From Oidiodendron maius Zn (lineage: Eukaryota > Ascomycota > Leotiomycetes > Myxotrichaceae), in the NCBI GenBank assembly GCA_000827325.1, contig KN832887.1, positions 62,001-126,000 of the forward strand: 64,000 bases of DNA, in the 5' to 3' direction. A program made the position numbers and the translations under genes. The notes beneath the pieces are model-generated. The model had not been told where the DNA came from, did no database searches, and saw nothing but the letters and a program-made list of their open reading frames with translations. Shown piece by piece: positions 26,440 to 43,492 of this stretch; position 1 is the stretch's first letter, and the number at the start of each line of letters is the position of its first letter.

Positions 26440-26463
26440 CCGAGAATCGCACCGAGAATCCTG
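26440..26463 (-). promoter_or_regulatory. Two direct copies of the shared cluster motif (ATTCTCGG) upstream of GH27
   Basis: Plus strand CCGAGAATCGCA then CCGAGAATCCTG, i.e. two copies of CCGAGAAT spaced 12 bp, about 220-240 bp before the GH27 start. The second copy, read on the minus strand, is CAGGATTCTCGG, identical over 12 bases to a site upstream of the esterase gene at 31643-31654. Half-site CGG fits Zn(II)2Cys6 binding; the regulator is inferred to be the one at 28815-30329. Confidence 0.55.
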
Positions 26464-26680
26464 CCTCGACAATGCCCCGTGGCCAGGCTTTACCTGAGAG
26501 GTACTTTCCTACCCCACAAAGCATCGCATACTCCATATGATGAGATAAACTTACAGTGCGGGGTGACCCAAAATGGGGAGGCCGGCATTTGCTATAAAAA
26601 TGGGGATGCGGCTCCTCACTGAAATCACCAGCGCTCCAACTCAAAGCCAGAGAACTTGAATCGGATTCAGATTCAAAGTC
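26464..26680 (+). promoter_or_regulatory. GH27 core promoter
   Basis: TATAAAAA at 26593-26600, 81-88 bp before the ATG. CreA-like sites: CCCCAC at 26512-26517 (minus-strand GTGGGG) and GCGGGG at 26558-26563. Suggests glucose repression plus induction through the upstream motif pair. Confidence 0.5.
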
Positions 26681-28483
26681 ATGGACTCGAAACTTGCCTT
26701 TGTCATTTTAGCCACAGCTAGCTCGGTTGCTGCTCAATGGCAGTGCGGCGGAAGCACCTACACACCCGGATCGGTCAAGTTCACAAATGAATGCTACCAG
26801 ACCGCTCAAGATTGCATCAAACAGTTTGCGGCAAATACAAGCCAAGCGTACTGTCAAGACGATGCGGGGAATCTTTATATGCAACAAGAGCCTTCCAATG
26901 GGAGCAATAGCCAGTATGCCGCTGCTTTCGAGGATATTCTTGACTTCTGTCTTCTTGATGGATCGACCACTGGAACTTGGGATGATGGATCAGATGGGCA
27001 ATGGTATTGGATGGCCGCAGAATCCGGATGCTACTCGTCAACGGGAACGATAAACACCACAGGCCCTGGATTTTGTGTCCAGGATCGCACTGACACTGTC
27101 ATCAATGGATGCTATCCGCAACCCGAACCGAACTCAGGCGCCCTTCAAGTACTTAAGACCGGACGCACCCGCAATGGCTTTACCTCCTCCGGAAGAGGAT
27201 GGAACTCTTGGGGGATTCAAGCTACTCCACTGACGACTCCCAGTTTCTCCGAGTTGGATCAAGAATTCGTGATTAAACAATGTTCGGTTCTTGCTCAGCC
27301 CGAATTCAAAGCCATGGGTTACGATGTCTGTAGCTTGGATGCAGGTTGGGCAGCATCCACTACCGACGAATATGGCAGGATTAGTTACGATACAACTCGG
27401 TTTAACCTCCCTACACTGGGCAAATACCTTAGTGGGCACGGCTTGGGGTTGGGCGTCTATGTTATTCCTGGCGTTCCCTGCGAAGCAGGCAATAAAACTA
27501 TCAAAGGAACAAATATAAAACTAAGCGAAGCCTTCATTGGAAACAATGATGGGCTCGATTACTGTGATTGGGATTTCAGCAAGAATGGCGCACAGCAGTG
27601 GCATGATTCTTTGGTCGAGCTATGGGCGTCTTGGGGGGTCAGGATGATAAAGCTTGATTTTGTCACTCCCGGAAGCCCGTGGAACGGAGCAAATTTACTT
27701 TGCAACAACAGTCCAGCCGTACAGGCTTACCAAACTGCCATCAAGAGATCGGGTTACCAAATACGATTAGATCTCTCCTGGAAACTCTGCCGCAACGAAA
27801 CCTATCTTCCATATTGGAGCAGTTTCGCCGAGTCCATGAGAACTGATCAAGATATCGACAACTATGGCCAACCCACATTTGTTGCCTGGCAGGAAGTGCA
27901 GCGTGCTGTTGATAACTATCGTCAATACATCTCTCTGCAAAAGCAGCGTAGAGTTCCTATTACGATCTATCCCGATATGGACAACCTCTTCGTAGGGAAT
28001 TCGGAGAATGTAACCGGAGTGAGTGATACACAACGCTACACTATAATGAATCACTGGCTCGGAGCCGCTGCAAATCTAATTATTGGCTCGGATCTCACAA
28101 CTCTGGATAACCTCGGTATCAAGCTGCTGACGAGTACGCAATCGGTCAAGGCTGCCAACTTTTTTGCTCAGTACCCTATGCAGCCACGCAATCCCGGAAC
28201 AGGAAATAATCTCGCACAACAACTTCAAGCCTGGATCGCTGGCCCGACCCCGCAGAAACAAGGCTATGTTCTTATTGCAAATTACGGACCAGACCAAGGC
28301 GCTGGCGGATTCGGTACATCAGTGACCGGTGTCCAGCCAGTGACTGTCTCGCTCAGTGATTTGGGTATCAAAGGCAAGTGGAAGTTTACAGACGTCTGGA
28401 ATGGGAATTCCACTACGGTATCGAGGTCGTACACTGCTTATCTGGATGAGAATGAATCACAACTTATAGCAATCTCGGGGTAA
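26681..28483 (+). CDS. Secreted GH27 alpha-galactosidase-type glycoside hydrolase
   Basis: Expected to release terminal alpha-D-galactose from side chains or oligosaccharides outside the cell. Single exon, 600 aa. Signal peptide at 1-18 (FVILATASSVAA). A Cys-rich N-terminal extension covers about 19-150 (WQCGGSTYTPG, ECYQTAQDC), not part of the usual catalytic core. The catalytic barrel begins near residue 167 with GRGWNSWG, then SLDAGWAAS; the nucleophile Asp sits in IKLDFVTPG (about residue 325) and the likely acid/base Asp in SMRTDQDI (about residue 388). C-terminal beta domain follows. Many N-glycosylation sites. Convergent with the regulator gene next door. The KLDF and RTDQD forms differ from the KYDNC type of classical GH27 enzymes, so a related specificity (for example beta-L-arabinopyranosidase) cannot be excluded. 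Confidence 0.88.
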   Translation: MDSKLAFVILATASSVAAQWQCGGSTYTPGSVKFTNECYQTAQDCIKQFAANTSQAYCQDDAGNLYMQQEPSNGSNSQYAAAFEDILDFCLLDGSTTGTWDDGSDGQWYWMAAESGCYSSTGTINTTGPGFCVQDRTDTVINGCYPQPEPNSGALQVLKTGRTRNGFTSSGRGWNSWGIQATPLTTPSFSELDQEFVIKQCSVLAQPEFKAMGYDVCSLDAGWAASTTDEYGRISYDTTRFNLPTLGKYLSGHGLGLGVYVIPGVPCEAGNKTIKGTNIKLSEAFIGNNDGLDYCDWDFSKNGAQQWHDSLVELWASWGVRMIKLDFVTPGSPWNGANLLCNNSPAVQAYQTAIKRSGYQIRLDLSWKLCRNETYLPYWSSFAESMRTDQDIDNYGQPTFVAWQEVQRAVDNYRQYISLQKQRRVPITIYPDMDNLFVGNSENVTGVSDTQRYTIMNHWLGAAANLIIGSDLTTLDNLGIKLLTSTQSVKAANFFAQYPMQPRNPGTGNNLAQQLQAWIAGPTPQKQGYVLIANYGPDQGAGGFGTSVTGVQPVTVSLSDLGIKGKWKFTDVWNGNSTTVSRSYTAYLDENESQLIAISG

Positions 28484-28814
28484 TATAGAACGTAAACGTC
28501 ATGTTGTGTATGTATAGAAAGAATACAATACACCTATCTACTTTCCACCTGAAGCATGTACATTCATTTCCTCTTTAGACTTAGTTAATTGAGGAAAATT
28601 TCTACCTGACAGTGGCAGATCTGCGCGAAGCCGATCTTGGCGTTATGCAGGGCTCAGCCATGCATCTTGTAGATCTCTATGCCACGCTATAGGTGGTTCA
28701 ACCTTAAACTCACTAATTGAATACAAAGCCTGCAACTCCCCTGATATATCACCACTAGTTTAATTACCTCTCCAAAACCCTCAGTATTAACCCCTTAAAT
28801 TTCGTACATATTGC
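28484..28814. other. Convergent 3' region between GH27 and the regulator
   Basis: Holds the 3' ends of two convergent genes. AT-rich, with nothing else recognisable. Confidence 0.6.
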
Positions 28815-30329
28815 TTAAGCAAGGTCGAGGAAGTCATTATATAGCATGGAATTCACAAGTTGAAAGTCGGTGGAGAGTAGGTCTTCCTCAAAGGACGACG
28901 GACTATCCTCTTCAATCAGCTCCAAGCTTTTTGGTATCGACGAAGAATCGAGAATGACCTCAACCTTCTGCGCCAGGACATCGCGAAGACCGGGATTCAT
29001 AACCTGAAGAGAAGACATAAAATTTGTCAAGCTTTTAAGCGTGTCTTTCCGACCAACCAAGAGGCAGGACTGTTCTTCTGGCTTGCATAAGATTGAGTCT
29101 GCTAATGCGGTAGCAATCTCGTACATCTTGACCTCCATGCCTGGACCGTGTACTTCGAATGCCGCCGGTGAGAACTGAGAGACGCCTCGAAGAGCATGCT
29201 GAGCGATTTCAAGAGGATATTCGACGTTCATTTCCCGCTTGCCGTTAGGCATTACGTACCCAGAAATCACGGATAGCTTCCATGCCAGGGAACGGATCCA
29301 ATGCTGTGACACCACAATATCCACCATTTGGATGTCGTTAATGTAGCTCGGGTTCTCTAATGGGCGTTGCAGTGCATGCTGGATGAGAAGAAGCTGATCT
29401 CTACTCATTGTTACGTTTGAGCCCTGAGAAGTCCATCTGCCGAAGAAATCGCGACCCGGTGTGCTAAAGAGTGTGACGAGATTCAAGAATCCGGTAACTG
29501 CGTCTGGGTTCTCTTCGTCGTCCGTGTCAGGTAGTGGGATAGACTCGAGAACTATCGGAAGACCTTGTTGGATACAAAGGTAGCGTTCCGTCATGAATAG
29601 GAGGAAATATAATTTCCGCATGACCCGCTGGTCCTTGACACAGTATCGAGCATATGTATCTTCCAAGTGCATGCCGAACATATGGGCGAATGTAATTGCC
29701 TCGCGGATGTAGAATGCTGCCATCTGCTCCCGCGATGCTTGCCGGCCATAGAAGATATGGAGGAAGTAAGACGTCAAAACAGTATCTAGAGTTACCGGCT
29801 CCATATAGTCGTAAGTGCCTCGAACCCTTCGACACTCCTTGATGAACGCCTCTGCGTCAAGTGCGCCCTGGCGGGACTCGTCCATGACAGTCCGACTCAT
29901 GTTGGATAGTGTTGCTCCGCATAGGGCCGTCGTAAGGGCGTAAATTGTAGGGTCGCTTGTCTGACTCTCGAGTCGGAGAATCAGATCATCGGTGGCAAGC
30001 AGTGGCCATATGCCGTACAAGCTTTCCTTGTACATCGATAGTACGTTTCGAATCACCGAGGTCGGAATCTGCTGGAGATCTGCTGCCGGCGACGCTTGAT
30101 ATACGCCGGGTGGTGACATAGGCAATTCATCCGGCTTCAGCTGTGTCAGAGCCATCTGCTCTTTCCATATCTTCATTGAGGCTTGTCGGAGATGTCGAGG
30201 GCCACTTCGCCTCCTCTCTCGTAGATATGTGCACGCTAGCCCATTGGCCATACATCGACCGCATGGGAGCCCACCTTCACATTTTATCTTCCTAATGTTG
30301 CAACAATCGCAGGCTCGTTTGGGCGACAT
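28815..30329 (-). CDS. Zn(II)2Cys6 transcription factor, candidate cluster regulator
   Basis: Nuclear DNA-binding regulator. Single exon, 504 aa. The binuclear zinc cluster is at residues 7-33 with spacing C-x2-C-x6-C-x5-C-x2-C-x6-C (CDCC, KIKCEGGLPCGRC, LACTY), followed by a basic linker RERRRSGPRHLRQ. The middle (about 90-400) has the features of the fungal-specific TF (middle homology) region: YGIWPLLATDDLI, AEAFIKECRRVRG-type sequence, TSYFLHIFYGR, AFYIREAITFAHMFGMHLED and RKLYFLLFMTERYLCIQQGLP, resembling AmyR/MalR/XlnR-type regulators of sugar use. It lies inside the cluster, between GH27 and the esterase. The shared ATTCTCGG sites in neighbouring promoters contain a CGG triplet, as this class prefers. 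Link to that motif is inferred. Confidence 0.92.
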   Translation of the reverse strand: MSPKRACDCCNIRKIKCEGGLPCGRCMANGLACTYLRERRRSGPRHLRQASMKIWKEQMALTQLKPDELPMSPPGVYQASPAADLQQIPTSVIRNVLSMYKESLYGIWPLLATDDLILRLESQTSDPTIYALTTALCGATLSNMSRTVMDESRQGALDAEAFIKECRRVRGTYDYMEPVTLDTVLTSYFLHIFYGRQASREQMAAFYIREAITFAHMFGMHLEDTYARYCVKDQRVMRKLYFLLFMTERYLCIQQGLPIVLESIPLPDTDDEENPDAVTGFLNLVTLFSTPGRDFFGRWTSQGSNVTMSRDQLLLIQHALQRPLENPSYINDIQMVDIVVSQHWIRSLAWKLSVISGYVMPNGKREMNVEYPLEIAQHALRGVSQFSPAAFEVHGPGMEVKMYEIATALADSILCKPEEQSCLLVGRKDTLKSLTNFMSSLQVMNPGLRDVLAQKVEVILDSSSIPKSLELIEEDSPSSFEEDLLSTDFQLVNSMLYNDFLDLA

Positions 30330-30703
30330 GGTGAGAACCGTGATGCTGACTGTTTTAGATTGCGTTCAGCAGAGTGTAGACCGGATGCCAATGGAACAGA
30401 AACGAGCAGATGCAGACCACTCCATGAAGATAGGAAGAAGAATGGAAACGGGGGTTAGAGATGAAGAGCGTCAGGACAATGACGCCGAGGAAGAATCGAG
30501 ACTGGGAAGGAGAGCTGGAGTTAGAGATGGAAGATGCGGGGTTCTGACTAGGGTGGGGGTGGTGGGCCAAGCCTTGGCCCCTGAACACGAGCTTCAGTGG
30601 CGAAGTTTAAATGAGAATTGATGGGATGACAAGTCACGAGGACATGTGAGATTGTAGAGGGATATATATATATATATATCACATTATAAAGGTTTATTAG
30701 GCT
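30330..30703 (-). promoter_or_regulatory. Upstream region of the regulator, with (AT)9 tract
   Basis: Short upstream region shared with the 3' end of the esterase gene. A/G-rich on the plus strand near 30420-30530. An (AT)9 microsatellite lies at 30662-30679, just after the esterase stop codon. No copy of the ATTCTCGG motif was seen here, so autoregulation through it is not suggested. Confidence 0.45.
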
Positions 30704-31474
30704 TCACTGCTCGGCCACCTTTACATCTCTCCATAGGGAGGCCGGTAAGTCCGAATTGTCCACGTCCGAGATATGGGGTAAGATTGTAGCTAAGTTCTCC
30801 GTGCGAAGTTCAGGGTATTCCTTGCGGATTGTCTCGCGCAGCAAGTCATACCAGATCCGGTAACCTTTGCCTGAAAAATGAACGCCGTCGGTGAGCAGAT
30901 CGTCTAAATTCTGGTTTGTCGTCTCGCCCAGCTTTCCCGGAATCGGGTCCCCTTCTTTCAGTCCCTTAGACTCCAGGAACGCGTGCCATAAATCGATGAA
31001 CGGTACCTCGAGTTCCCTCGCGACCTTGCCGACGGCATTAGAGTATGCGAGGTTAGTCATGGTCGCCCTGTCGCCATCCATCTTGTGCTCATCGACCAGG
31101 GCCGGACCGACTAGGATAATAGGGACTTTTCGTCTCGCTGCTTCTGTTGCTAGGAGATGTACATTTTCAGCATACCGCCCGAGCGGGACATGCTGAAGGG
31201 CATTCTGGGCCGAATCATTGGTTCCGAAGAAGACGACAAGGAGCCTGATCTTGCTCCCGCCAGCTGCTTCCGTATCCAGTGTTGGGTTAAGAATGTAGCG
31301 CGCATGCTCTGTATTGTAACCACCATACCCACGAACGACAACTTGGAGTTTTCGAAAGTATTCGTGCTGTAAGGCCGGGGCAAGATTGAACCCGTATTCT
31401 TGATTGTAGCTCTGCTCCGTAATTGAGTCTCCGAACAGGAGGATCTTGTCCACGGTCACTTTGGCAACATTCAT
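30704..31474 (-). CDS. SGNH/GDSL esterase, isoamyl-acetate-hydrolysing esterase type
   Basis: Single exon, 256 aa from the ATG at 31474 (an in-frame TTG lies five codons upstream). Shows the SGNH blocks: catalytic Ser in LFGDSITEQ, the Gly block as RGYGGYNT, the Asn block as FFGTNDSA, and Asp/His in TDGVHFSGKGY. Closest in layout to IAH1-type acetyl esterases. No signal peptide, so it acts inside the cell. In this cluster a role in removing O-acetyl groups from an imported oligosaccharide is attractive, since acetylated galactose occurs on fucosylated xyloglucan side chains; this is inference. Its upstream region has the shared motif at 31643-31654. Confidence 0.9.
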   Translation of the reverse strand: MNVAKVTVDKILLFGDSITEQSYNQEYGFNLAPALQHEYFRKLQVVVRGYGGYNTEHARYILNPTLDTEAAGGSKIRLLVVFFGTNDSAQNALQHVPLGRYAENVHLLATEAARRKVPIILVGPALVDEHKMDGDRATMTNLAYSNAVGKVARELEVPFIDLWHAFLESKGLKEGDPIPGKLGETTNQNLDDLLTDGVHFSGKGYRIWYDLLRETIRKEYPELRTENLATILPHISDVDNSDLPASLWRDVKVAEQ

Positions 31475-31642
31475 TTCCACAAAGTACAAATCAAAACCAG
31501 CGTTTGCCAGATGAAAGTATCAGCACATGTGAAATGCAAAGATCCGACACTACACGAACGCATATACCAGGAGCAAGCATGAAGTACGCTTGAAAATCCG
31601 GAAGCTGGCTGCGACATGATCCCCGTAAGTAGGAGGGGTCGG

Positions 31643-31654
31643 CAGGATTCTCGG
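31643..31654 (+). promoter_or_regulatory. Cluster motif CAGGATTCTCGG upstream of the esterase
   Basis: Sits about 170 bp before the esterase ATG, in the 332-bp gap between the dehydratase stop and the esterase start. Identical over 12 bases to one of the two GH27 promoter copies. Followed by CGG, giving TCGGCGG. Confidence 0.55.
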
Positions 31655-31806
31655 CGGATCGCAATAACCGATAGACAACCGACAACAGACTCGGGATTGG
31701 TTAAGTCTCACGGATAGAACAGACTTACGCCTAAACTGGTTCGAGATTTTCAGATGATACAGGGAACTAATTTGTTTACTCCCTAATAGGCTATTAGAGA
31801 GAAGCT

Positions 31807-33366
31807 CTATATTTTATTTCCGCTTCGAATTCTGAGCCCTCGAACTGACTTCCAGAAGTCTCCATCCGGAAAGCTGTAGGTCGATATGGCATTATCCTTG
31901 TACTTGACGCTGTACCCTTGCTCCCATGGCGTTACGAAATAGCTATTCTTGACTTTCACTGGGTATTCGATGACCTCATTGAATGAGTTGATATGTTCCA
32001 GCATGCTCTTCTTTCCAGAGACGCAAACATAGTCAATAATGGCAAGATGCTGAGTGTACTCATTCAAACCAATGCCACCGCTGTGAGGAATGACGGGAGT
32101 TTCAAACCTAGCAATGTTAGCTATCTGTAGTATAACATACTTAATTGATTTGTATACTTCTTTGCCAATAAAAGTACCGACATGACCTCATTGACACCAC
32201 CCAGCCGACAGGCATCGATTTGGCATACATCGATGGAGCCAGCCTGAAGAAGCTGTTTGAATATTACACGATTTTGGCAGTGTTCGCCTGTTGCTACCCC
32301 AATGCCGTGAGGTTTTAATGCTTTCCGGATTTCCGCGTGTCCGAGAATGTCGTCTGGCGAGGTAGGTTCTTCGATGAAACTGTTGAAGGGTATAAGCAGA
32401 GTTCTCATACTCAACGGAACGAAGTTTGTTCCGGAAAGGACACTCACTCAGGCTTAAATTCAGCCAGCTGTAGCATCCAATCGATTGCATCTGGGACTCC
32501 CCAAACTTGATTCGCGTCTACCATAAGTTTCCTCTCGTATCCAATGACATCCCGCGCAATCTTCAATCGGCGTTTGTCGTCTTCAATGCTTCCACCAACT
32601 TTAAGTTTGAATTTATCAAACCCCTCTGCAATCATGTCTCTCATCAATTCTGTCATTCTCTCGTCTGTAAAGCCAAGCCAACCTGCTTGTGTTGTATAAG
32701 CCGGGACTGCAGTGTTGCTCTTCACATCTTGTAATCTCCTGTCCCTCGTCTTTCGTGCCTCTGTAAGGATAGAAATAGCTTCTTCCGGCGTTATGGCATC
32801 CATGATATAGCGAAAGTCGATGCATCTCACAAACTCTTCGGGGGTCATGTCAGCTACGACTTGCCACACGGGCTTTCGTAAATATCGAGCCCAGAGATCC
32901 CACAGAGCATTGACACAAGTACTTAACCCCAGGTGAATGACGCCCTTCTCTGGGCCAATCCACCGAAGTTGGGAATCTGCCACCAAGTAGCGCCAGGTCT
33001 TTCCCATGTCAGCTGTCAATTCTTCAAGATTCTTCCCGATTAACTTCTCAGCGATATTCTGTGCAGCCATGCAGACAAGATCATTTCCTCGACCAATAGT
33101 GAAAGCGAAGCCATGACCATCGAGATTTTTGGAAGTATGAAAAATAATATACGCGGCACTGTAGTCTGCTGCTAGGTTCATAGCATCAGAGCCAGATGCG
33201 TCCAAACTAGTAGGAAATCTCAAATCTATATAACTGTTAGCGATGCCTTCAATGCCTTAACTATCAACAGCGTGAAATTACCGTGCACGTCAAACGATGT
33301 GATGATGATATCTTTCGGATCAAGAGGGCTTGGACCCTGAGTTTGGGTGCCATCTGTGGCTTCCAT
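31807..33366 (-). CDS. L-fuconate dehydratase (enolase superfamily)
   Basis: Dehydrates L-fuconate to 2-keto-3-deoxy-L-fuconate in oxidative L-fucose breakdown; the family can also take L-galactonate. Four exons: 33366-33282, 33225-32448, 32379-32158, 32107-31807, with 50-68 bp introns; product 461 aa, close to bacterial FucD and human ENOSF1. Splices restore [21 protein letters not shown]-type N terminus, [10 protein letters not shown] and [14 protein letters not shown]. Visible signatures: LEGHG-like [34 protein letters not shown] (catalytic Lys), LMVDANQVW (metal Asp), EEPTSPDD and ATGEHCQNR (metal Glu), [12 protein letters not shown] and the His in PHSGGIG. All metal and catalytic positions are kept. 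The third intron uses donor GTATAC; an alternative GTATGT inside it would leave a 33-base intron and an insertion, so it was rejected. Cytosolic. Confidence 0.95.
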
Positions 33367-33702
33367 TTTAACAGTAGTAATGAATGACTTTGCCTTGCGG
33401 TACGAAATAAGAAATGTGAACGCTTTTTGAATCTCAGAAAGATAATCTTGGGTAGTTCCATGACGCTGGTAACGCGGGGCTGATGGCCAATAGGTGGGGT
33501 GACAGGTGGTGGATCTTCGCCGACATTTGACCCGACATCACAACCGATACCATCAGCCCGAATTGTCTCAGGCCGTGTTGGTTCTGGAACAAGTCTAGAA
33601 CAAAGGGAAATATAATAATAGAGTTTAGATCTTGTTTAAATTTAATTACTTGGAGCGTTATCTAATTGTCCCGGCTAATAACTTCAGCCACTCTCTCTCC
33701 CC
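33367..33702 (-). promoter_or_regulatory. Upstream region of L-fuconate dehydratase
   Basis: Shared with the 3' end of the GH95 gene. Contains GCGGGG at 33474-33479 and GTGGGG at 33494-33499, both CreA-like. The exact ATTCTCGG octamer is absent; a weaker relative, CCCGAATTGTCTCAGG, lies around 33558-33573. A copy of CCGAGAAT does occur at 32341-32348 but inside coding exon 3. Confidence 0.4.
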
Positions 33703-36012
33703 CTAAGATTTATATACTTGTAATGAGCTATCTAGCTGCACCACTTTTCCCGCCTCAAATACTAACTTGATGTTATGATCTTTGTAGTATACCGTGACAC
33801 ACCCTGGGGAGTAGAATTTAAGAGTCCCTTTCACCAAGTATTCATTCTCCCACTCGATATCAACTTCAATATTCCCTCTTGCACGCAGGCCCTTGATATG
33901 TCCAGTTGGCCAAGCGGAGGGAAGGGCCGGAAGGAGATCAATTTCTGACGTACTACTGCGAAGTAGCATTTCACTAATAACAGCTGTTCCTCCATAGTTT
34001 CCATCAATAACGAAAATATTTGTCTCTGCTCCCGCAATCCCAGGCTTTGAGAAAGATAGCAGGTTGTCGAAAGACAGCTCTCCGATTAAGTGGCCAACTT
34101 GTTTAAAAGCCTGTTCGGCATCATTGAGGTGGGCGTAGTTAAGTCCGAATAGAGCAGCAGTGAACTCAATATCTTCTAAATCCGCGCGGGCTTGACGGTT
34201 CTCAAGTGTAATTCGAACGGCTTCTGCTAGCTTGGGAGTGTGCCGAGGGGTAATCTGGTCACTTCTGCATAATGCCATCGTGTGAGAGAGATGTCGATGG
34301 TCTGGCTGAGCCTCCTCGTAATCCTCCAGCCACTCCTGGAGCTGGCCTCTCTTCCCAATCTTAAACGGAGGAAGCTTTGTTATGGCATCTTCTAAACGAT
34401 TCGAGAACTCTGCATCGATATTCAATTCTCTTGTCGCAGTAACACAAAAGTTAAATAGATCTCGGATTAGAACTATGTCCAGAGTTGGTCCAAGAGAGAG
34501 TTGATGTTCGATTCGGGGAGAACTGTTAGGATAAAAGCTGTTTTCAGGAGAGACGGAAGGGCCAGTAACAAGGTAGCCACACCTAGGATCTACCACCATA
34601 TAATCCAAGAAAAATTCTGCTGCAGCTTTTAGCACGGGATAGGCGTGTTTGAAAAGATAGGTTTTGTCCATCGTATACTCATAATGCTCCATCATGTGTA
34701 CGGCGAGCCATAATCCTCCAGTGACATTCATGCCCCAACTGGTCTCCCAGCCGGGATCAGCAAAGCCCCAAACATTGGTGAAGACATGTGCCACCCAGCC
34801 TGGACTACCATAAAATAACTCCGCTGTAGTCTGCCCAGCTTTTGCAAGTCTCTCAATAAAGGCAGCCAGAGGACTGTGGCAGTCAGCTAGGTTCGTGCTT
34901 TCTGTGGGGAAGTAATTCATCTGTGTATTCATATCTAGATGATAGTCGCAGCTCCAATTCATTCTATTTGCTTCTCCATCATTCCATAATCCTTGTAGAT
35001 GTAATGGAAGTGGAGAGTCCGTGCGGGTGCCAGCAATAGTGAGGTAACGTCCATATTGAAAATATGTGGAAAAGAGTTGCGGATCATCGAAGCCAGACGC
35101 TTTAAATTTTTGTCGCCTCCCGTTTGTGGTCCATTTATCTTTCGCATTGTGACCGAGATCAATGCTCACACGCCGATACAAGGACTGGTGATCATTAACA
35201 TGATGTCTCTTTAGCTCATCATAACTCAATGCTTGAGCTTCATTCAGCTGTATGAATGCGAGAGTTTTCCACGAGTCATCAGTCTGCTGAAAATCCGTAT
35301 TGAATGCAAGTAAGATGAGAACAGACGAAGCATCTTTGACAGCTATTCCTGATTTGCACATTTCTAATCGGCCACTAGACGTGACAAGTTTAATAAATCC
35401 ATGTCCAGAGACTCCACATTTGCCATCGCTGTGCACATCTTCCACTGCGTGGACGTTGAATTCTAGACCATCAGCGACATTTGTCAACGATATCTCATCA
35501 TTTTCACCGGATAGAGACAGTTCCAGCGTAAGCCCTTGAGGAGCATTTGTGCTAAATCGAGATACGAGGACATTGTGGGGATGAGAAACGAATGTTTCTC
35601 TGCGATAGTCATGGTTATCTAACTCGTACGTAGCGGTGGCAACAGCGTCGTCAAAGTCGAGCTTTCGTTGAAAAGCTGTTGGGGAGCTCGAATGTCCAAT
35701 TTTGAGCTGAACTTTGCCAACAGTCAAATTTGTGCCAAAATTATGCTTTGGTGGCTGTAGATATTTTTCGGCCAGCTTCTGTCCAGCGCCATAGTCATCC
35801 TGGAAGTATTTATTTTGCATTTCCCGAATAGACTCTTTAGTACCATATCGTTTTCCCGGTTCTGACCGGCCTGACCAGAAAGTGATCTCATTTAAACTCC
35901 ATGTCTCTTGGTTGATGTCTGACAAGACGACAGCACCAATCCTGCCATTACCGATTGGCATGCCTTCACTCCATTTCTTAGCAGGAGCATCATATATCAG
36001 AGACTCTGACAT
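33703..36012 (-). CDS. GH95 alpha-L-fucosidase-type enzyme, no signal peptide
   Basis: Expected to release alpha-1,2-linked L-fucose (some members take L-galactose) by inverting hydrolysis. Single exon, 769 aa. Starts MSESLIYDAPAKKWSEGMP, directly at the catalytic family's N-terminal domain, so the protein is probably cytosolic, unlike secreted fungal GH95 enzymes. Motifs: GNGRIGAVV, TFWSGRSEP, LPLHLQGLWND, NWSCDYHLDMNTQMNYFP (about 352-368), TSWGMNVTGGLWL, the general-acid Glu in LQEWLEDY (about 559), HRHLSHTMAL, and the Asp in VIDGNYGGTA (about 668). The usual N-x-N water-holding pair before TQMNY/LQMNY reads D-x-N here. Divergent from the sugar transporter across an 855-bp shared promoter. 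Activity is likely but the D for N change makes specificity uncertain. Confidence 0.92.
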   Translation of the reverse strand: MSESLIYDAPAKKWSEGMPIGNGRIGAVVLSDINQETWSLNEITFWSGRSEPGKRYGTKESIREMQNKYFQDDYGAGQKLAEKYLQPPKHNFGTNLTVGKVQLKIGHSSSPTAFQRKLDFDDAVATATYELDNHDYRRETFVSHPHNVLVSRFSTNAPQGLTLELSLSGENDEISLTNVADGLEFNVHAVEDVHSDGKCGVSGHGFIKLVTSSGRLEMCKSGIAVKDASSVLILLAFNTDFQQTDDSWKTLAFIQLNEAQALSYDELKRHHVNDHQSLYRRVSIDLGHNAKDKWTTNGRRQKFKASGFDDPQLFSTYFQYGRYLTIAGTRTDSPLPLHLQGLWNDGEANRMNWSCDYHLDMNTQMNYFPTESTNLADCHSPLAAFIERLAKAGQTTAELFYGSPGWVAHVFTNVWGFADPGWETSWGMNVTGGLWLAVHMMEHYEYTMDKTYLFKHAYPVLKAAAEFFLDYMVVDPRCGYLVTGPSVSPENSFYPNSSPRIEHQLSLGPTLDIVLIRDLFNFCVTATRELNIDAEFSNRLEDAITKLPPFKIGKRGQLQEWLEDYEEAQPDHRHLSHTMALCRSDQITPRHTPKLAEAVRITLENRQARADLEDIEFTAALFGLNYAHLNDAEQAFKQVGHLIGELSFDNLLSFSKPGIAGAETNIFVIDGNYGGTAVISEMLLRSSTSEIDLLPALPSAWPTGHIKGLRARGNIEVDIEWENEYLVKGTLKFYSPGCVTVYYKDHNIKLVFEAGKVVQLDSSLQVYKS

Positions 36013-36867
36013 TTTGCCCGATGAGTGCTTTAAGGTCGCTCACAGCGTGCAATTAAAATTGCTGTAATACACCTCGGCTGTTGACTTTGAATTTAATGAT
36101 TGCCCTGCCTGTGCGTTAGTTGCAGGCATATTCAAAGTATAAAAGGGTATGAATCATGTGGTTCTAAAAAAATGACTTACCTAAAGCCTAATCTCCGACC
36201 TTGTCGACGGATTGGCTAATGTGTATGTCTATTCTTGATGCGTCCCAGTCAATAACTCAAGACTTTTCACCCTGATCTCCGGAATCTCACTACTATCGAC
36301 ATCTCAAAGTAGGAAAACTGCCCGGTCGCCGGGGACGCAGTTTCCCGAATGCTACAATATCTAAACGGTTTCTCGCGACAAACTAACACGCCACAAGTGC
36401 GACGACGGCAGGCTCCTTCACCTCGGTGAGATTATCGGCAGAGGGGAATCCTCCACTCTCAGCTGCAAAATAATACGGCGTCCATAAGCGAGAGGCGAAT
36501 TAGGGGCAGACGAGCATCCTGACCTTTTTGGGAATGGCGCCTTCAGTATCTCGTGATATCGAGCGCGGCCGAATTCTCGGGACACACACAACAGGGCTGG
36601 TTTGCTCACAATTCTCAATGATTTGGCCAAACCCATAGGTTGGAGAAAGCATGGGAAGAGAGGAAGCAATCCCGAGCTTAAGGTTCCGTCTACTGTTAGT
36701 ACTGAACCGTGTCCTAACGCCTCCCGGGAATCTCCCCGGATTTCAATAGGACCTTGTGCTATGCATTTCCCCACTGGCCTACCCCACACATTGAACGAGC
36801 GTATATAAACATTTGCCTACGGCTCACTTGAGGACACTATCGAGTCCATCCTCAATCATCAGCAACC
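36013..36867. promoter_or_regulatory. Divergent promoter between GH95 and the MFS transporter
   Basis: Shared control region. Near the MFS gene: TATA at 36802-36808 (60-66 bp before the ATG) and CreA-like sites at 36735-36740 (CCCCGG), 36770-36775 and 36782-36787 (both CCCCAC), plus CCGGGG at 36329-36334. An inverted TCCG-N10-CGGA lies at about 36191-36208, a possible zinc-cluster site. The shared cluster motif is at 36569-36580. Open frames inside (36418-36808) are not supported as genes. Confidence 0.55.
36569..36580 (+). promoter_or_regulatory. Cluster motif CCGAATTCTCGG in the GH95/MFS promoter
   Basis: Contains ATTCTCGG and is itself CCG-N6-CGG, an inverted CGG pair of the kind bound by Zn(II)2Cys6 dimers. 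Lies 288 bp before the MFS start and 557 bp before the GH95 start. Confidence 0.55.
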
Positions 36868-38496
36868 ATGGAGAAAGAGACCGCCATTACCGAGAAGATC
36901 CCCTCCGACGTGGAGCAGCTTGAGCAGCTCCACGATGTCGAGACCTCAGGCAAAATGGAAGCAATCACCAGAGATTTAGCTGACAGAGGAACCCGGACAG
37001 AGCATGAGCTGGGCACCTGGGAGGCTCTTAAGATCTACCGAAAAGGGGCCTTTTGGTCTATGTTCATCTCCCTTTCGATCATCATGCGAGCCTATGATAT
37101 TGAGATTTCTGGAAATTTCTATGCTTTACCAGCGTTCCAGCAACACTTTGGATTCCCCGTTGCTGGCCATGGCTATCAAGTCCCTGCTCGCTGGCAGGTG
37201 GCCATATCCATGGGCTCACTTGTGGGCCAGGTCGTTGGAGCGTATCTCGTCACATTCCCGATGGAAAAGTATGGCAGGAAGAAGACGTTTGCTGTCTGCT
37301 TGGTCCTCACGACGATCCTCACATTCATGCAATTCTTCGCTTCCAGCATCGGTGTCCTCACTGCCTCTATGTACCTATCAGGCATTGTCTGGGGTAGCTA
37401 CTGTGTTATCGCAACCACATATGCCTCCGAAGTTCTTCCTCTGCGCCTTCGAGGATTTCTGACTGGATATATCAACTTGTGCTACGTCATGGGTCAGTTC
37501 ATCCAGACTGGAGTAACGCGAGGCTTTATTTCCCGGACAGACAAGTGGGCCTATAAGATTCCGTTCGCAATCCAGTGGGTCTGGCCAGTCATCCTTCTAT
37601 CGGGCCTGTGGTTTGCTCCCGAATCTCCCTGGTGGCTCATCCGACAGAATAAGACGGATGAGGCCGAAAAGTCGCTCAAAAAGCTTTCCCATAAGGACGA
37701 GAAAATCAACACACGAGAGACGCTGGCTATGATGGTCAAGACAGATTTACTTGAGCACGAGACTGAGGTCGGCACAACCTACGCCGACTGCTGGAAAGGT
37801 ACCAATCGTCGCCGCATGGAGATCTGCATCCTTCTGTTTGTTATCCAGAACTTCTCCGGAAACCCAGTTGGATTCGCAACATATTTCTTTGAGCAAGTCG
37901 GTCTTGACAGCAAGCAAGCCTTCGATATGGGCGTTGGTCTCAATGGTATGGGTTTTGTCGGCACACTGTGCTCCGCTGTACCCTTGATATACTTCGGTCG
38001 TCGACCCTGCTATATCGCCGGCCTGGCTTGCATGGTGACAATTCTCTTCATCGTAGCAATCATCTCATGCGCTCCGAATTACTACACAAACGATAGCTAT
38101 AAATGGGCCCAAGCCACGCTCCTCATTATCCTCCAGTTTATCTGGCAAATGACGCTCGGCCCTCTGACCTACGTCGTTGTTTGCGAAACTCCATCCACAA
38201 AGCTTCGGTCTAAAACAATTGCTCTTGCAACTATAATCGATGCTATTACTGGTCTTGCCACCAGCGCTGTAGGACCATACCTCCTCAATCCTGGCGCGGC
38301 GAACGCTGGAGGAAAGATGGAGTTTTTGTATGGTGGCATATCTATATTCTCCCTGACGTGGTGTATATTCCGCCTTCCTGAAACGAAGGGACGAACTTAC
38401 GAAGAGCTTGATATCATGTTTGAGCGGAAGGTACCAGCGCGGGCTTTTGGCAAATATGTTATCGAAGATCATGATGACGAAGCTCTAGTTGTGTAG
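36868..38496 (+). CDS. MFS sugar transporter, maltose/alpha-glucoside permease type
   Basis: Proton-coupled sugar importer of the plasma membrane. Single exon, 542 aa with about 12 TM segments. Hydrophilic N terminus, then ISLSIIMRAYDIEISGNFYALP, cytoplasmic GRKKT between TM2 and TM3, YASEVLPLRLRGFLTGYIN, the central-loop PESPWWLIRQNK, QNFSGNPVGFATYFFEQVG, PLTYVVVCETPSTKLRSKT, and the C-terminal PETKGRTYEELDIMFE. These are sugar-porter hallmarks, and the closest layout is the MAL-type family that carries oligosaccharides. Since two neighbouring hydrolases (GH95, GH36) lack signal peptides, import of an intact oligosaccharide is suggested. Substrate is inferred, not seen. Confidence 0.93.
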   Translation: MEKETAITEKIPSDVEQLEQLHDVETSGKMEAITRDLADRGTRTEHELGTWEALKIYRKGAFWSMFISLSIIMRAYDIEISGNFYALPAFQQHFGFPVAGHGYQVPARWQVAISMGSLVGQVVGAYLVTFPMEKYGRKKTFAVCLVLTTILTFMQFFASSIGVLTASMYLSGIVWGSYCVIATTYASEVLPLRLRGFLTGYINLCYVMGQFIQTGVTRGFISRTDKWAYKIPFAIQWVWPVILLSGLWFAPESPWWLIRQNKTDEAEKSLKKLSHKDEKINTRETLAMMVKTDLLEHETEVGTTYADCWKGTNRRRMEICILLFVIQNFSGNPVGFATYFFEQVGLDSKQAFDMGVGLNGMGFVGTLCSAVPLIYFGRRPCYIAGLACMVTILFIVAIISCAPNYYTNDSYKWAQATLLIILQFIWQMTLGPLTYVVVCETPSTKLRSKTIALATIIDAITGLATSAVGPYLLNPGAANAGGKMEFLYGGISIFSLTWCIFRLPETKGRTYEELDIMFERKVPARAFGKYVIEDHDDEALVV

Positions 38497-38829
38497 GAAA
38501 TTCGCTGAAGATAGTTGTTAGTCTCTGAATGTGTGGAAATTGGATTTAATCGGTCATAAGTGCTTAAAATATCGAGAAGCACCCTAGTAGCCTATATCTA
38601 TGACTGTAAATCTAATGTTGTCACCTAAATCCAGACTTTATATAGCAATTGCACTTGACTCAAATTAAACACATGCCTCTTGTAATGTGTGTATTATGAA
38701 ATGGAACTCGTGAATTAAACCAAACCTATAATTTGCCTACACCAAATCTAGCAGGATAATTCGATCCACAGGAAAGGAACATTACACCGAGATATTCGCA
38801 GCTGATTGCCCTCAGTGGCCCCTAAACGG
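38497..38829. other. Intergenic region between MFS transporter and GH36
   Basis: 3' flank of the transporter, AT-rich, no recognisable gene. Confidence 0.6.
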
Positions 38830-38841
38830 TGCAATTCTCGG
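38830..38841 (+). promoter_or_regulatory. Cluster motif TGCAATTCTCGG upstream of GH36
   Basis: Lies 85 bp before the GH36 ATG. Differs by one base from the first GH27 copy (TGCGATTCTCGG when read on the minus strand). Confidence 0.55.
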
Positions 38842-38925: not shown

Positions 38926-41418
38926 ATGCCCTCGGCCACCCAGATTGTGTTTACGCCGGCCCTTGGCCAGGTTGTCACTCTGCCTCCTGGTGTTGCCAAG
39001 GTTGCCGTTTATGCGACAACCCCGCATCCGGCCGAACTTGAAGCCAGATTCACTGGTGGATCAGCCAAATTCGACGAAATAAATCTAGATTCTACAGCGG
39101 ACCTTTTCACGTACGCTGTTCATTTTAACGGCGGCAAGGTACCTGAGGATATACGCGTTGTCGCAAATGGGGTTGAATTGGCCGAAAGGATCAAGTTTAC
39201 ACAACAGCAAGTGCGGGGGAGTGATCGCGAGTTTTTGACGGAGGTTGTTCTTGAGGAGGGTGAAGATTTCAAAAGCCAAAAACTCGACTGGCTCGACGTT
39301 CACGACTGGGAAGGTTGGGCTTGGTACAGACCAAGAGATACATGGATTGAGGCTTATCATACCAGCTTAAGCAAGCTCTCGCCTGACACGCCAACGCACA
39401 ACTTGCTCCTCCATCCGACAAACATAAATATCGACTCCAACTCAGTTCTCGCAGTTTTCCCCGCCTCTACGCAAGAGATTTTTGTAACCTTGTCTGGAGC
39501 TCGAGATGGAGAGGCTCCGGGGATATATGCGCGAGCTCGACGAGTCAAACGAGGCGATAAGATCAAAACTCACGTTGGCGGAAAACTCACCGTTCACAAA
39601 GGCAAAATAACCGCCATTAAGGGTGCAGTTGACGTTGTGTGCGCCGAGCAGGGCCTTCCTGGAACCTCTTTTACCAAACATGAAGGCGAGAGTCCGTTTG
39701 ATAGATTGGGTTTCTGTACCTGGTCAAGTATTGGCGAGAATGTACCACTCACTTTGGATCTCATGGATAATCTAGTGCAGTTACTTGCGAAGAATGAGAT
39801 TCCAATTGGCACGTTCATCATAGATGATGGTTGGCAAGATATTCGGTACGGTTTCAATGGCCATGAAAAGGCTCGCGGTCTTTGGGACTTCGGTACTTGG
39901 GATGTCATGAAAGCCCCCCTTTCGGATGTCGTTTCTTTGATCAAGAAGACTCTTCCCACAGTCAAGGATGTCGGTGTCTGGATGACGCTTGCAGGTTACT
40001 GGAATTCAATTGCACCAAACTCTCCTTTGGCTAAAAAGTATGAAATGCGAACATTCAAACTCAATCGCGACAATGTCCCTGGCATTGTTTGGCACGATGA
40101 CGGATTTGACGGTCAGCAGTCAGGCACAATTACGAAACCGGAAGATCGGTTTTATTGCCTACCGCCTCCGCATCTTGCCTATACCTTTTGGAGGGATTAT
40201 TTTTCTAGTTGTGCAGAAGCTGGCGTTACTTTTGCAAAGGTAGATAACCAAGCCTACGGATCTTACTTGGACGGAGTCGAAGGTGGAGAACAATTTGTTG
40301 CAATGTGGAATGGCATGACCAAGGCTGCGAACGATGTCTTCGGAGAGAATAAGGTTATCCACTGTATGGCGCACTATGAACGCATGTTCAATGGTGACAT
40401 TGGCATGGGTATAGCTACAGGGGGCAAGAGGATTGTCATTCGGAATTCTGACGACTTTGGTCTCGATAGGCCGAATGTCCACCGAAATCACATACAGTAT
40501 AATATTTTCAACGGCATGCTTAACTCGCAGCTTTGCTTTATCCCCGATGCAGATATGTTTATGACAGGAGCTCAATGGCCTGAGTACCATGCAGTTCTGC
40601 GTGCATTTTTCGAAGGCCCAATTTTGCTTGCGGATAAACCAGGCGCGTCTGACCTCAACGTTGTACGAAAGCTAATTGGAAGATCGCCGCAAAATGTTTA
40701 CGAGACTGTCACCGCACCGGAGACCATTCGACTTTTAGCCAGGAATGTGTGGGAGCGTTTCCTAGATGCCGGAGAAGGCCCTGCCATAAAAGGGGCTGCC
40801 AAGTTCCCAAATTCAAACTCGGCCTCCATTGTACTTTGGAATGCACGACAGGACGCTCTCTATAACAGTTCAGATATCATATTCGAAGGTGACCTTATTG
40901 ACGCCCTGACTGGAACTGAGCTCTCCTCTTCCTCTCTCAAAACTTTGGAGGTTGCAATCTGGCTCTTTACATCCGGAAAGGCCATGTCTGCAGCTCTGAA
41001 TAGCTTCCCCATCTATCCTGAATACGATCCAGTATTGTCGTCGCCGCTGTTATCCATTTCGCTCCCTCCTGAGGCAATGGAAGTCCTCACGATTGCCCCG
41101 TTTTACCAAGTTGGAAACGTCAAAATTGCTAATCTTGGGTTGATTGACAAATATGCTGGCCTCGCGGCGGTTAAGAATACCAATGTCGCGGAAAATAAAC
41201 TCACAACAGAAATTATATTCGATGGAATTCTTGGCTTTCTTGTTTCTGGCAGTAGTGGGGATCTGGACAGCAAGATCAATCTGGCCATCGACAATGTCCC
41301 ACAACAATTCTCTGTTGTTTCTAAAGATGGCAATCTGAGTCTGGTACAAGTAGACCTGACAAAGTTACCAACTGCTCAAGGAAAGACCAGTTGGATTATT
41401 GAGCTTGCCTTTCATTAG
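38926..41418 (+). CDS. GH36 raffinose synthase / seed-imbibition type alpha-galactosidase
   Basis: Family members hydrolyse or transfer alpha-galactosyl groups. Single exon, 830 aa, in the expected size range. N-terminal beta-sandwich region, then FCTWSSIGENVPL, IGTFIIDDGWQD, GYWNSIAPNSPLAKKY, and the catalytic residues: nucleophile Asp in FAKVDNQA (about residue 440) and acid/base Asp in IRNSDDFG (about 509). QYNIFNGMLNSQLCFIPDADMF and LLADKPG match the raffinose-synthase subgroup. No signal peptide, so an intracellular role on imported oligosaccharide or on stored raffinose-type sugars. The start at MPSATQIVF follows a plausible context and the shared promoter motif. Convergent with the next gene. 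Confidence 0.93.
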   Translation: MPSATQIVFTPALGQVVTLPPGVAKVAVYATTPHPAELEARFTGGSAKFDEINLDSTADLFTYAVHFNGGKVPEDIRVVANGVELAERIKFTQQQVRGSDREFLTEVVLEEGEDFKSQKLDWLDVHDWEGWAWYRPRDTWIEAYHTSLSKLSPDTPTHNLLLHPTNINIDSNSVLAVFPASTQEIFVTLSGARDGEAPGIYARARRVKRGDKIKTHVGGKLTVHKGKITAIKGAVDVVCAEQGLPGTSFTKHEGESPFDRLGFCTWSSIGENVPLTLDLMDNLVQLLAKNEIPIGTFIIDDGWQDIRYGFNGHEKARGLWDFGTWDVMKAPLSDVVSLIKKTLPTVKDVGVWMTLAGYWNSIAPNSPLAKKYEMRTFKLNRDNVPGIVWHDDGFDGQQSGTITKPEDRFYCLPPPHLAYTFWRDYFSSCAEAGVTFAKVDNQAYGSYLDGVEGGEQFVAMWNGMTKAANDVFGENKVIHCMAHYERMFNGDIGMGIATGGKRIVIRNSDDFGLDRPNVHRNHIQYNIFNGMLNSQLCFIPDADMFMTGAQWPEYHAVLRAFFEGPILLADKPGASDLNVVRKLIGRSPQNVYETVTAPETIRLLARNVWERFLDAGEGPAIKGAAKFPNSNSASIVLWNARQDALYNSSDIIFEGDLIDALTGTELSSSSLKTLEVAIWLFTSGKAMSAALNSFPIYPEYDPVLSSPLLSISLPPEAMEVLTIAPFYQVGNVKIANLGLIDKYAGLAAVKNTNVAENKLTTEIIFDGILGFLVSGSSGDLDSKINLAIDNVPQQFSVVSKDGNLSLVQVDLTKLPTAQGKTSWIIELAFH

Positions 41419-41637: not shown

Positions 41638-43492
41638 TCAAGTTTCCAGTTGGCTCAAACCAAAAGACGCTCCAGTATGAAGAGTATTGTCAATATCACC
41701 GCGTCTTGTTCGTTTTGAAGACGAGTTTCGTGCCGGTGGGGCACTACGTTTGCTGGAAATTTCTTCTAGACGCCGACTTATAACTTCGCGGAATGCTCTT
41801 TTAAGAGTTGAATGAAGCTCCTTTGCTGCATAGTCGACTAAAATACTCTGGATGAGCACGCAGGCTTGGTCTTTGGTGTATCTATTTAGTGGCCTAAGTT
41901 CATCAAACTGAAAAGACAATATGCCATCAGTACGTTTGACAATGCGATGTACCCGGACACCTAAATCTTGAGCATTGAATACCACGGAGAATACTCGAAC
42001 ATCTTCTGAACACTCTTCTTCAAGGTTCGCACGTTCTATCCAGGTGTGCATGTTATTAAGAGCCTGGCTGGCGCTATGCAAATTCGCCATGAAAGCATCT
42101 TGGAGATCTGCGCCTGCCTTTTTTACTTCAAAAAAGAGAAATGGAAAGCATCGAAAGCCATTATCAGGAGATAAGCTAGATTGTAGTTCCCGTGGAACTG
42201 GATCTGATTTATCTCCACCAGTGCTTAAAGAGCGTAACTTGAAACTAATAGCCAGGTCAGGTTTAGGCAATGATATTTTGTCGTCATCACGAGATTTTAG
42301 GCATGTCGCATCAGTCTGTGACCATTGGCCTTCGGTGTTCCAATCGAACTTTTCGTCCAGCCAATATTGATTGATGATATGAATCATGATAGTGCGTTGA
42401 AGGACAGCTTCATTTTGAGATAGACATCTCTTCAAGTCGGCTTTAAAGTAATGGCAGTTAATGGCTGGATATCTAATACTGGTTTTGCCCTCGTCAAAGC
42501 GATATGAAAAGTCGTCAATGGCATTGTAACAACTCTCATTTGGATGCTCCTCTATTTGTTGCAGAAAATCCTTTGTAACCGATTTAAGATCTCCAATATC
42601 TTTTAGCTGTCGTTCAGGGAGTTGCAGAGTAAGAATAGATCTGAGATCTGGCATTTTAGGATCTTCCAGTGGTTCATCCTCTATCCGGCGCACCGCAAGC
42701 TTTTGAATGGACAGCTTTTTCCCACCGCTCCCCCTTCCTTTTGTAGTTGCAGATTCATCGTCTCGGGGTAATGAACTTAAATCCATGGTGCTCTCGGATC
42801 CGTCTGGAATACTGGGCCTAGATGCTGTGTATAAATCGCGATCTTCAGCGAATGCCCTGGGTGACACTGGTTCAAGTCCGCTTAACCAATCCGCTAAATT
42901 AGGATCCTATAGATATTAGGATTTGTTGTAGAATGATTCCAGTATATAACTGGAGATTGCATAAGTACTCACCTGCTGTTTTCCTTGTTCTAGTATCTGC
43001 TGAGGCTTCTCTTCTGCTTCAACTCTTTTCGGCGCAGATTCGATTGGAGGCAACTTCCTTTGCCCTTTCTTACTTACGGGTTTTGTACTCCGTTTTGTAC
43101 CCCGTTTTGTACCTGACCTTGCTGGCTGTACCCTCTTCGACTTTAAACCTCTGTTATGTTCACCCTGCGCCTCTCCTGGGGATGCTTGAAGGACGGGTTG
43201 TTGTGCCTGAGACTCGAGTGCATCCGGTCCCGTACCCCGTTGTCGCAAGGACCGTCGACGGCCTATGGTCCCTAATGGAACGATTGATTCTGCTCCCCTT
43301 ATCTCCTCTTCTTGTTTTACCCAAGCTCTTGTTCGGGGCCGGTGTGGGGGGTTAGGCAATTTGTTGACCTTCTTCTAGAGTTCGTCAGTCATGTCTACAG
43401 ATTCCAATGCTCCTCCATACCTGATTGTTCTGTACCTTTACAGCACCATCTGCGACTTGGAGTCTCTCTGTTGCACCTCGTCTTTTCGGCAT
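41638..43492 (-). CDS. Basic nuclear-looking protein with PD-(D/E)XK-like core (fungal DUF7924-type)
   Basis: Three exons, 43492-43421, 43374-42973 and 42906-41638, with introns of 46 and 66 bp, give 580 aa. The first exon (MPKRRGATERLQ) was found by tracing the splice upstream, because the long frame has no ATG. N-terminal third is disordered and very basic (GRRRSLRQRG, KRGTKRSTKPVSKKGQRK), suggesting nuclear targeting or nucleic-acid binding. The C-terminal core at about 240-540 contains AIDDFSYRF, PKPDLAISF and, after a loop, FLFFEVKKAGADLQDAF, that is the D...ExK pattern of PD-(D/E)XK nuclease folds, then SASQALNNM. I recognise this as a fungal family of unknown function; the name is from memory. 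C terminus is Arg/Ser-rich. Nuclease activity is only inferred. Confidence 0.78.

Follow-up and report, generated by a model that had tools for sequence, protein, structure and literature searches.

The stretch analysed here, called the window throughout, comprises 64 kb of the Oidiodendron maius Zn genome and corresponds to positions 62001–126000 of contig C18; the genome has 45,896,833 bp in 58 contigs, which we designate C1, C4, C14 and so on. In its gene content, with Zn2Cys6, fungal-specific and fungal rhodopsin domains, the window is typically fungal. At about 26.4–41.4 kb of the window lies a cluster of sugar-breakdown genes whose promoters share a direct repeat, CGG-N9-CGG, with the octamer ATTCTCGG as its right half in most promoters. 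The first gene encodes a GH27 glycosidase of the alpha-galactosidase or beta-L-arabinopyranosidase type (26681..28483, + strand; Pfam Melibiase_2 and Melibiase_C), whose nearest solved structure is the GH27 beta-L-arabinopyranosidase 4nx0 (E 4.6e-10). It is followed by the gene of a Zn2Cys6 transcription factor of 504 amino acids (28815..30329, − strand; Pfam Zn_clus and Fungal_trans), which is the candidate binder of the repeat, and by a GDSL-type esterase gene (30704..31474, −; Pfam Lipase_GDSL_2) with its ATG at 31474. An L-fuconate dehydratase-like gene, apparently intron-bearing, was placed at 31800..33366 (−) with a candidate ATG at 33366 and an approximate 3' end. Its frame at 32444–33223 contains the Pfam domain MR_MLE_C, and the structure matches include the L-fuconate dehydratase 2hxt/2hne (E about 3e-80), the best match 4ip4 and the human ENOSF1 (4a35). 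The genes of a GH95 alpha-L-fucosidase (33703..36012, −; Pfam Glyco_hydro_95_cat, E 3e-141) and of an MFS sugar transporter (36868..38496, +; Pfam Sugar_tr, E 1e-79) are divergent, and the gene of a GH36 or raffinose-synthase-type galactosidase follows at 38926..41418 (+; Pfam Raffinose_syn).

The preliminary description of the window had named the octamer as a shared promoter motif. A recount found all ten of its reported copies in the window, whereas dinucleotide shuffles contained 2.40 on average and none of 100 reached ten. The genome rate yields about 2.2 copies per 64 kb (1594 copies, 775 + 819, in the whole genome; the reversed control word has 1197). Five of the copies are located in the cluster promoters, as had been reported, at 26440–26447, 26452–26459, 31647–31654, 36573–36580 and 38834–38841. 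In these promoters, which are six stretches of 3,335 bp in total as defined in this analysis, 0.12 copies are expected at the genome rate. Since the two GH27 copies form one tandem, the excess of the octamer by itself is only suggestive. With the tandem counted once, the four places gave a P of about 7e-6 before correction for about 33,000 octamers, ATTCTCGG ranked fourth among the octamers of the cluster promoters, and the local background is itself octamer-enriched.

The repeated unit was found to be a 15-bp element, CGG-N3-R-ATTCTCGG, where the octamer supplies the right half of the CGG-N9-CGG repeat. At the N9 place, CGG or AGG was present with all five promoter octamers (CGG in four, AGG in one) but with none of the five other octamers of the window. 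For CGG in four of five copies the chance is 1.4e-6 at the genome fraction of 37/1594. The GH27 promoter has two halves upstream of the ATG at 26681, CGGTGCGATTCTCGG (26440..26454, −) and AGGCAGGATTCTCGG (26452..26466, −), which together read AGG-N9-CGG-N9-CGG with the spacers AGG CAGGATTCT CGG TGCGATTCT CGG. Steps of 12 bp thus give a chained form, AGG/CGG-N9-CGG-N9-CGG, where neighbouring sites share a CGG. The esterase site CGGCAGGATTCTCGG (31640..31654, +) is located 166–180 bp before the ATG and reads CGG CAGGATTCT CGG. Three sites were found in the divergent GH95/MFS promoter: the octamer site CGGCCGAATTCTCGG (36566..36580, +; CGG CCGAATTCT CGG) at −302 from the MFS ATG, a second site CGGTGAGATTATCGG (36424..36438, +), and the palindromic CCGGGAATCTCCCCGG (36724..36739), which has CGG-N9-CGG on each strand and a less similar spacer. 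The GH36 promoter contains CGGTGCAATTCTCGG (38827..38841, +; CGG TGCAATTCT CGG) less than 100 bp from the ATG at 38926.

For the dehydratase gene only a weak relative of the motif had been reported. Its promoter indeed lacks the octamer, but it contains, with spacers of only faint likeness to the octamer sites, a triple CGG-N9-CGG-N9-CGG, CGGTTGTGATGTCGGGTCAAATGTCGG (33520..33546, −), that reads CGG TTGTGATGT CGG GTCAAATGT CGG and is chained as at GH27. The octamer was rejected as the recognition unit because CGG or AGG at N9 accompanies every promoter copy and the dehydratase triple does without the octamer. The shared motif first described was upheld as such, with the octamer reduced to its right half and with an extension beyond the cluster. 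Twenty compiled sites gave the consensus CGG-Y-R-R-R-A-T-T-C-T-CGG, where T occupies positions 10 and 12 in 20/20.

The spacing was analysed with CGG pairs in three orientations at spacings of 0 to 20, i.e. 63 arrangements, in the six promoter stretches. CGG-N9-CGG was counted nine times (eight places, one of them palindromic) as compared to 0.84 in shuffles, and none of 300 shuffles reached nine. The repeat was present in five of the six stretches, and 1.15 were expected (P 3.4e-6) from about 224 kb of same-genome background, a non-random sample that consists largely of octamer-selected or paralog loci and includes the C23 target locus described below. When the eight places were counted, P was 2.7e-5, or about 0.002 after correcting for the 63 arrangements. 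Direct repeats with any of the remaining spacings up to 20 were not enriched in the 3,335 bp, and the inverted and everted pairs were not enriched either, except for CCG-N10-CGG (three observed; reached by 2 of 300 shuffles), which was set aside as probable chance among 63 arrangements. A dyad analysis ranked CGG-N9-CGG first of 33,530 with a P of 3.7e-6, which does not survive the correction for all dyads.

Conservation was followed in the promoters of paralogs from the same genome. For five proteins of the cluster other than the regulator, paralogs were sought genome-wide and were chosen by protein similarity, not by the motif. GH27 has four other loci, on C4, C15, C14 and C25, of which the two most similar to the cluster gene, C4 (78% identity) and C15 (63%), had their promoters read. 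In the C4 promoter ATTCTCGGCGCGGTTCTCGG begins 224 bp ahead of the ATG and in the C15 promoter ATTCTCGGTTCAAATCTCGG begins 274 bp ahead of it, both in the same orientation as the cluster tandem, which starts at 241 bp. When the cluster GH27 promoter was compared with these two, the tandem block was the best match (20 and 22 bases, E 0.004 and 0.012), and the promoters otherwise barely align. GH95 has seven other loci, one of them at C5:980k. In the closest one, on C22 (66%), CGGCATAATTCTCGG is located at −365 and the opposite strand shows a near match, CGGTAAGATTCTCGA; this gene is divergent from a short-chain dehydrogenase gene. The GH95 promoters of C18 and C22 barely align outside the element, and the element is not their best match either. 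On C30 a CGG-N9-CGG-N9-CGG triple with a weak spacer match lies about 280–307 bp upstream of GH95, and on C16 a weaker site was seen. Footprints were hence present at the paralogs nearest to the cluster GH27 and GH95 and absent from several remoter ones, which are named below where the interpretation is weighed.

Comparison with the promoters of the genome at large was made by whole-genome counts. The exact site CGGN4ATTCTCGG occurs 37 times in 45.9 Mb (25 for the reversed control). Four of the 37 are located in a 12.4-kb stretch of the cluster, one in each of four promoters, where 0.010 would be expected. This is the largest group; others are three sites within about 19 kb on C22 and two within about 1 kb on C23. 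The exact tandem ATTCTCGGN4ATTCTCGG exists once in the genome. Among the variants, CGGN4ATTATCGG was found 28 times (control 19), twice at promoters discussed here, and CGGN4AATCTCGG 26 times (control 23), four times at loci discussed here including a remnant on C26. TCTCGGN6TCTCGG was found 25 times, which is fewer than its reversed control (42), and three of these are at the three GH27 promoters. C21:348988 appears in two of the variant-site lists.

Beyond the cluster, seven of the 37 exact sites were tied to sugar genes: the GH95/short-chain dehydrogenase pair and an MFS gene on C22, a GH2 and an MFS gene on C23, and one locus each on C26, C17 and C14. With the exception of the C22 GH95 gene these links are post hoc, because the genes were read after the sites had been seen. 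In 26 three-kb loci outside the cluster, the site lay in an open frame of at least 130 amino acids at 15, and 9 of the other 11 loci gave ten frames for Pfam, of which two were sugar-related. In the control, one of ten frames from eight octamer-only loci (two overlapping) was polysaccharide-related, so the frame comparison alone shows no enrichment.

The MFS genes on C22 and C23 belong to the family of the cluster transporter (about 42–44% identity over the middle part). Their promoters have the identical 15 bases CGGCAAGATTCTCGG at −333 and about −360, and this was the sole match between the two promoters (E 0.001). Two further sites are present in the upstream region of the C22 transporter. 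The closer MFS paralogs (C14:103829 with 56% identity, and others) have no exact CGGN4ATTCTCGG nearby according to the 37-site list. The C23 transporter gene is divergent from a GH2 glycosidase gene, whose first Met is preceded by CGGGTAGATTCTCGG at about 240 bp, and on C17 two sites are found upstream of a glycoside hydrolase with an MGH1-like domain. At C14:299830 the site CGGGGGTATTCTCGG precedes an SMP-30/gluconolactonase-type gene, whose product would plausibly be a sugar-lactone hydrolase of the same pathway.

A stretch on C26 is 72% alike over 835 bp to the upstream region and start of the C22 transporter and has the same site; because of this alignment the C22 and C26 sites are not independent. 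Such a pair would be expected if the copies were leftovers of promoter duplication or of a repeat element and had no regulatory meaning. We consider this highly improbable as a general explanation, since the GH27, the C22/C23 MFS and the C18/C22 GH95 promoters barely align outside the element, even though the best match of the GH95 pair is a different one. The region C26:262–272 kb contains a GH95 match with in-frame stops, an aldo-keto reductase domain and a transporter-like remnant, and CGG-N9-CGG is still present there. A tblastn search with the window transporter gave no match in this remnant stretch.

Two further features of the window were noted. A DUF7924 protein is encoded at 41638–42867 (−) after the GH36 gene and perhaps marks the right border of the cluster. 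At 19436–21814 (−) a single long open frame has a fungal rhodopsin domain and then an MFS domain (Pfam), which may represent a fusion or two run-together genes.

The linked regulator at 28815–30329 matched Zn_clus with 2.5e-8 and Fungal_trans with 1.4e-6, domains that are common to many other fungal regulators. Its solved relatives are mainly the DNA-binding domains of Put3 and Gal4 (E about 1e-4). Relatives were found at eight other loci of the genome with E 2e-14 or better and about 26–33% identity over long stretches. Their Zn2Cys6 blocks are similar, and blocks of this kind are, as we take it, typical of MAL and AmyR regulators. Four of the long-match relatives have an MFS match at a distance of no more than about 4 kb (C14:284856, C21:508148, C11:347641 and C1:5088070), and a fifth, C14:101820, matched in the DNA-binding block only, adjoins the closest MFS paralog at C14:103829. 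This arrangement gives the impression that cluster-linked sugar regulators have expanded here as a family.

The element common to these promoters very probably functions in regulation. Its structure, its spacing, its placement in promoters and its return at the GH27 and GH95 paralogs nearest to the cluster genes are seen in the sequence itself. We infer that it is bound by a protein, and the linked regulator is likely to be this protein. The element would then be the operator of a MAL-activator-type Zn2Cys6 protein, in all likelihood the one encoded at 28815–30329, and a homodimer would bind the two CGG of the repeat with a zinc cluster each. An inducer derived from L-fucose or from galactoside-containing glycans would lead to the joint switch-on of the GH27, esterase, L-fuconate dehydratase, GH95, MFS and GH36 genes and of related genes elsewhere. 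Since the cluster genes and some genes elsewhere carry the site, they are probably switched on together, and the element probably defines a dispersed fucose/galactoside regulon. That a MAL-activator-type protein, and presumably the linked one, co-activates this regulon is the explanation that we favour with good though not full confidence.

Several observations weigh against this explanation. When the octamer-bearing sites were removed, CGG-N9-CGG remained at four places as compared to 1.15 expected (P 0.03), so that most of the spacing signal comes from the octamer sites. The halves of the dehydratase triple score weakly on a matrix of the five octamer sites, and for the better half 0.2 matches are expected by chance. 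A second match between the C18 and C4 GH27 promoters lies elsewhere (16 bases, E 0.047). The direct comparison of the C4 and C15 promoters missed the tandem and gave one 11-base match elsewhere (E 0.67), so that these tandems are alike through the cluster's and not closely to each other. The paralogs without a good site in their promoters are GH95 at C5 (829k) and C11 and the dehydratase paralog on C6, and the surroundings of the GH36 paralog on C6, viewed without delimiting its promoter, showed nothing similar. The element was not recovered when the cluster MFS promoter was compared with the C22 and C23 MFS promoters. Of the 37 exact sites, 26 were not tied to a sugar gene: 15 are in open frames, nine are outside frames by other or unidentified genes, C22:353137 is near unrelated genes and one is on C24. 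The scan of the regulator's own promoter found no CGG-N9-CGG site, as the preliminary description had said for the octamer, and the stretches read on C22 and C23 contained no match to the cluster regulator.

Some of the observations would fit mere chance, i.e. an octamer picked by eye from a long text that has no function: the octamer is marginal after correction, it is frequent in the genome, and the N9 excess is modest once its sites are taken out. Yet CGG or AGG stands at N9 in all five promoter copies and the element recurs at the nearest paralogs of GH27 and of GH95, and we therefore regard chance as very unlikely. The last two points of the list bear on the identity of the binder. As the stretches read on C22 and C23 had no regulator match, the binder could be a different trans-acting factor. 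In that case the element would be real and read by a Zn2Cys6 regulator from an unlinked locus, for instance a further member of this family, and the cluster regulator would have another target. The occurrence of the element at the unlinked loci on C4, C15, C17, C22 and C23, the eight other loci that match the regulator and the site-free promoter of the regulator gene would agree with this. Against it, the largest group of exact sites, 4 of 37 within 12.4 kb, surrounds the regulator gene, and cluster-linked regulators commonly control neighbouring genes. We judge an unlinked binder to be unlikely, at odds well below those of the linked regulator.

The one fungal L-fucose regulator that a literature search found in print is FUR1 of Trichoderma reesei. 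FUR1 is an XYR1 homologue of 876 amino acids that acts through CCGACGG on GH95 fucosidases, L-fucose catabolism and putative alpha-galactosidases (PMC12370193). The gene set is similar to ours, with GH95 fucosidases, L-fucose catabolism and alpha-galactosidase-type genes, and the element might accordingly be the site of a FUR1-like regulator. However, neither CCGACGG, which in T. reesei lies in an AT-rich context, nor CCGTCGG occurs in the 3,335 bp of cluster promoters. The linked regulator, with 504 amino acids, is set apart from FUR1 by length and not by sequence comparison. On the heptamer count and the length of the linked regulator, we regard a FUR1-like binder as most improbable.

The cluster may represent a second fungal circuit for L-fucose and galactosides that has no relation to FUR1 and where a MAL-activator-type protein would read 12-bp-phased CGG arrays as overlapping dimer sites on at least six contigs; we put this forward tentatively, as a possibility somewhat short of an even chance. 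If true, a MAL-activator-type protein would have been taken over for the use of fucosylated glycans, and the scattered genes of the circuit would comprise GH27, GH95, GH36, GH2, another glycosidase, an esterase, transporters, a fuconate dehydratase and a sugar lactonase. The fungal sensing of L-fucose and of fucosylated plant glycans has been little studied, and the site of FUR1 differs. With 15 precisely defined base pairs and a constant spacing, the element would allow the regulon to be predicted in other fungi from their sequences; it yields a short list of target genes and offers a simple test of the recruitment of a MAL-type activator to a new sugar.

Among the known regulators, AmyR and InuR of Aspergillus have the sites CGGN8(C/A)GG in the sections cited (PMC5468973, PMC8180590). 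They resemble the present case in the CGG direct repeat, of which one half may be AGG, and in the Zn2Cys6 control of secreted glycosidases that is proposed here, but their spacing is 8 and not 9. CGGN8CGG was not enriched in the cluster promoters (one observed, 0.82 expected); for CGGN8AGG the bare count was three, without a background figure. The Aspergillus oryzae MAL cluster (MalR, MalP and MalT) also combines a regulator, a transporter and a glycosidase, there for the maltose pathway, and the cited part of a 2021 review gives the binding sequence of MalR as not known (PMC8180590).

Closest are the MAL-type regulators of yeast. In the passages cited, Yfl052w binds two CGG with nine AT-rich bases between them, CGG(9N)CGG, and Malx3 binds CGC(9N)CGN, with several sites required for full activation (PMC4172970; PMC6142294). 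CGG-N9-CGG repeats are present in the promoters of the putative targets as the sole enriched direct-repeat spacing of CGG (CGC-N9-CGN was not counted), and the regulator gene is clustered with sugar transporter and hydrolase genes. A text search for CGGN9CGG found no paper, and among the matches listed for the octamer letters none was on fungal sugar regulation by title. The kind of site is known; what looks new, on these limited searches, is the regulon together with its apparent independence from FUR1. Because the yeast MAL-type sites share the form CGG(9N)CGG and the FUR1 and AmyR/InuR sites differ, the element appears to work like a MAL-type site, a likeness that concerns site and gene context. 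Like Yfl052w and Malx3 of Saccharomyces, the system would combine a Zn2Cys6 regulator with a direct repeat of CG-rich triplets that are always nine bases apart. Promoters with several sites occur as among the Malx3 targets, whereas the Yfl052w targets have one in the cited passages. Unlike both, the cluster concerns other sugars and enzymes (GH27, GH95, GH36 and fuconate dehydratase), and its sites are chained in 12-bp steps with a shared CGG and the conserved spacer bases RATTCT.

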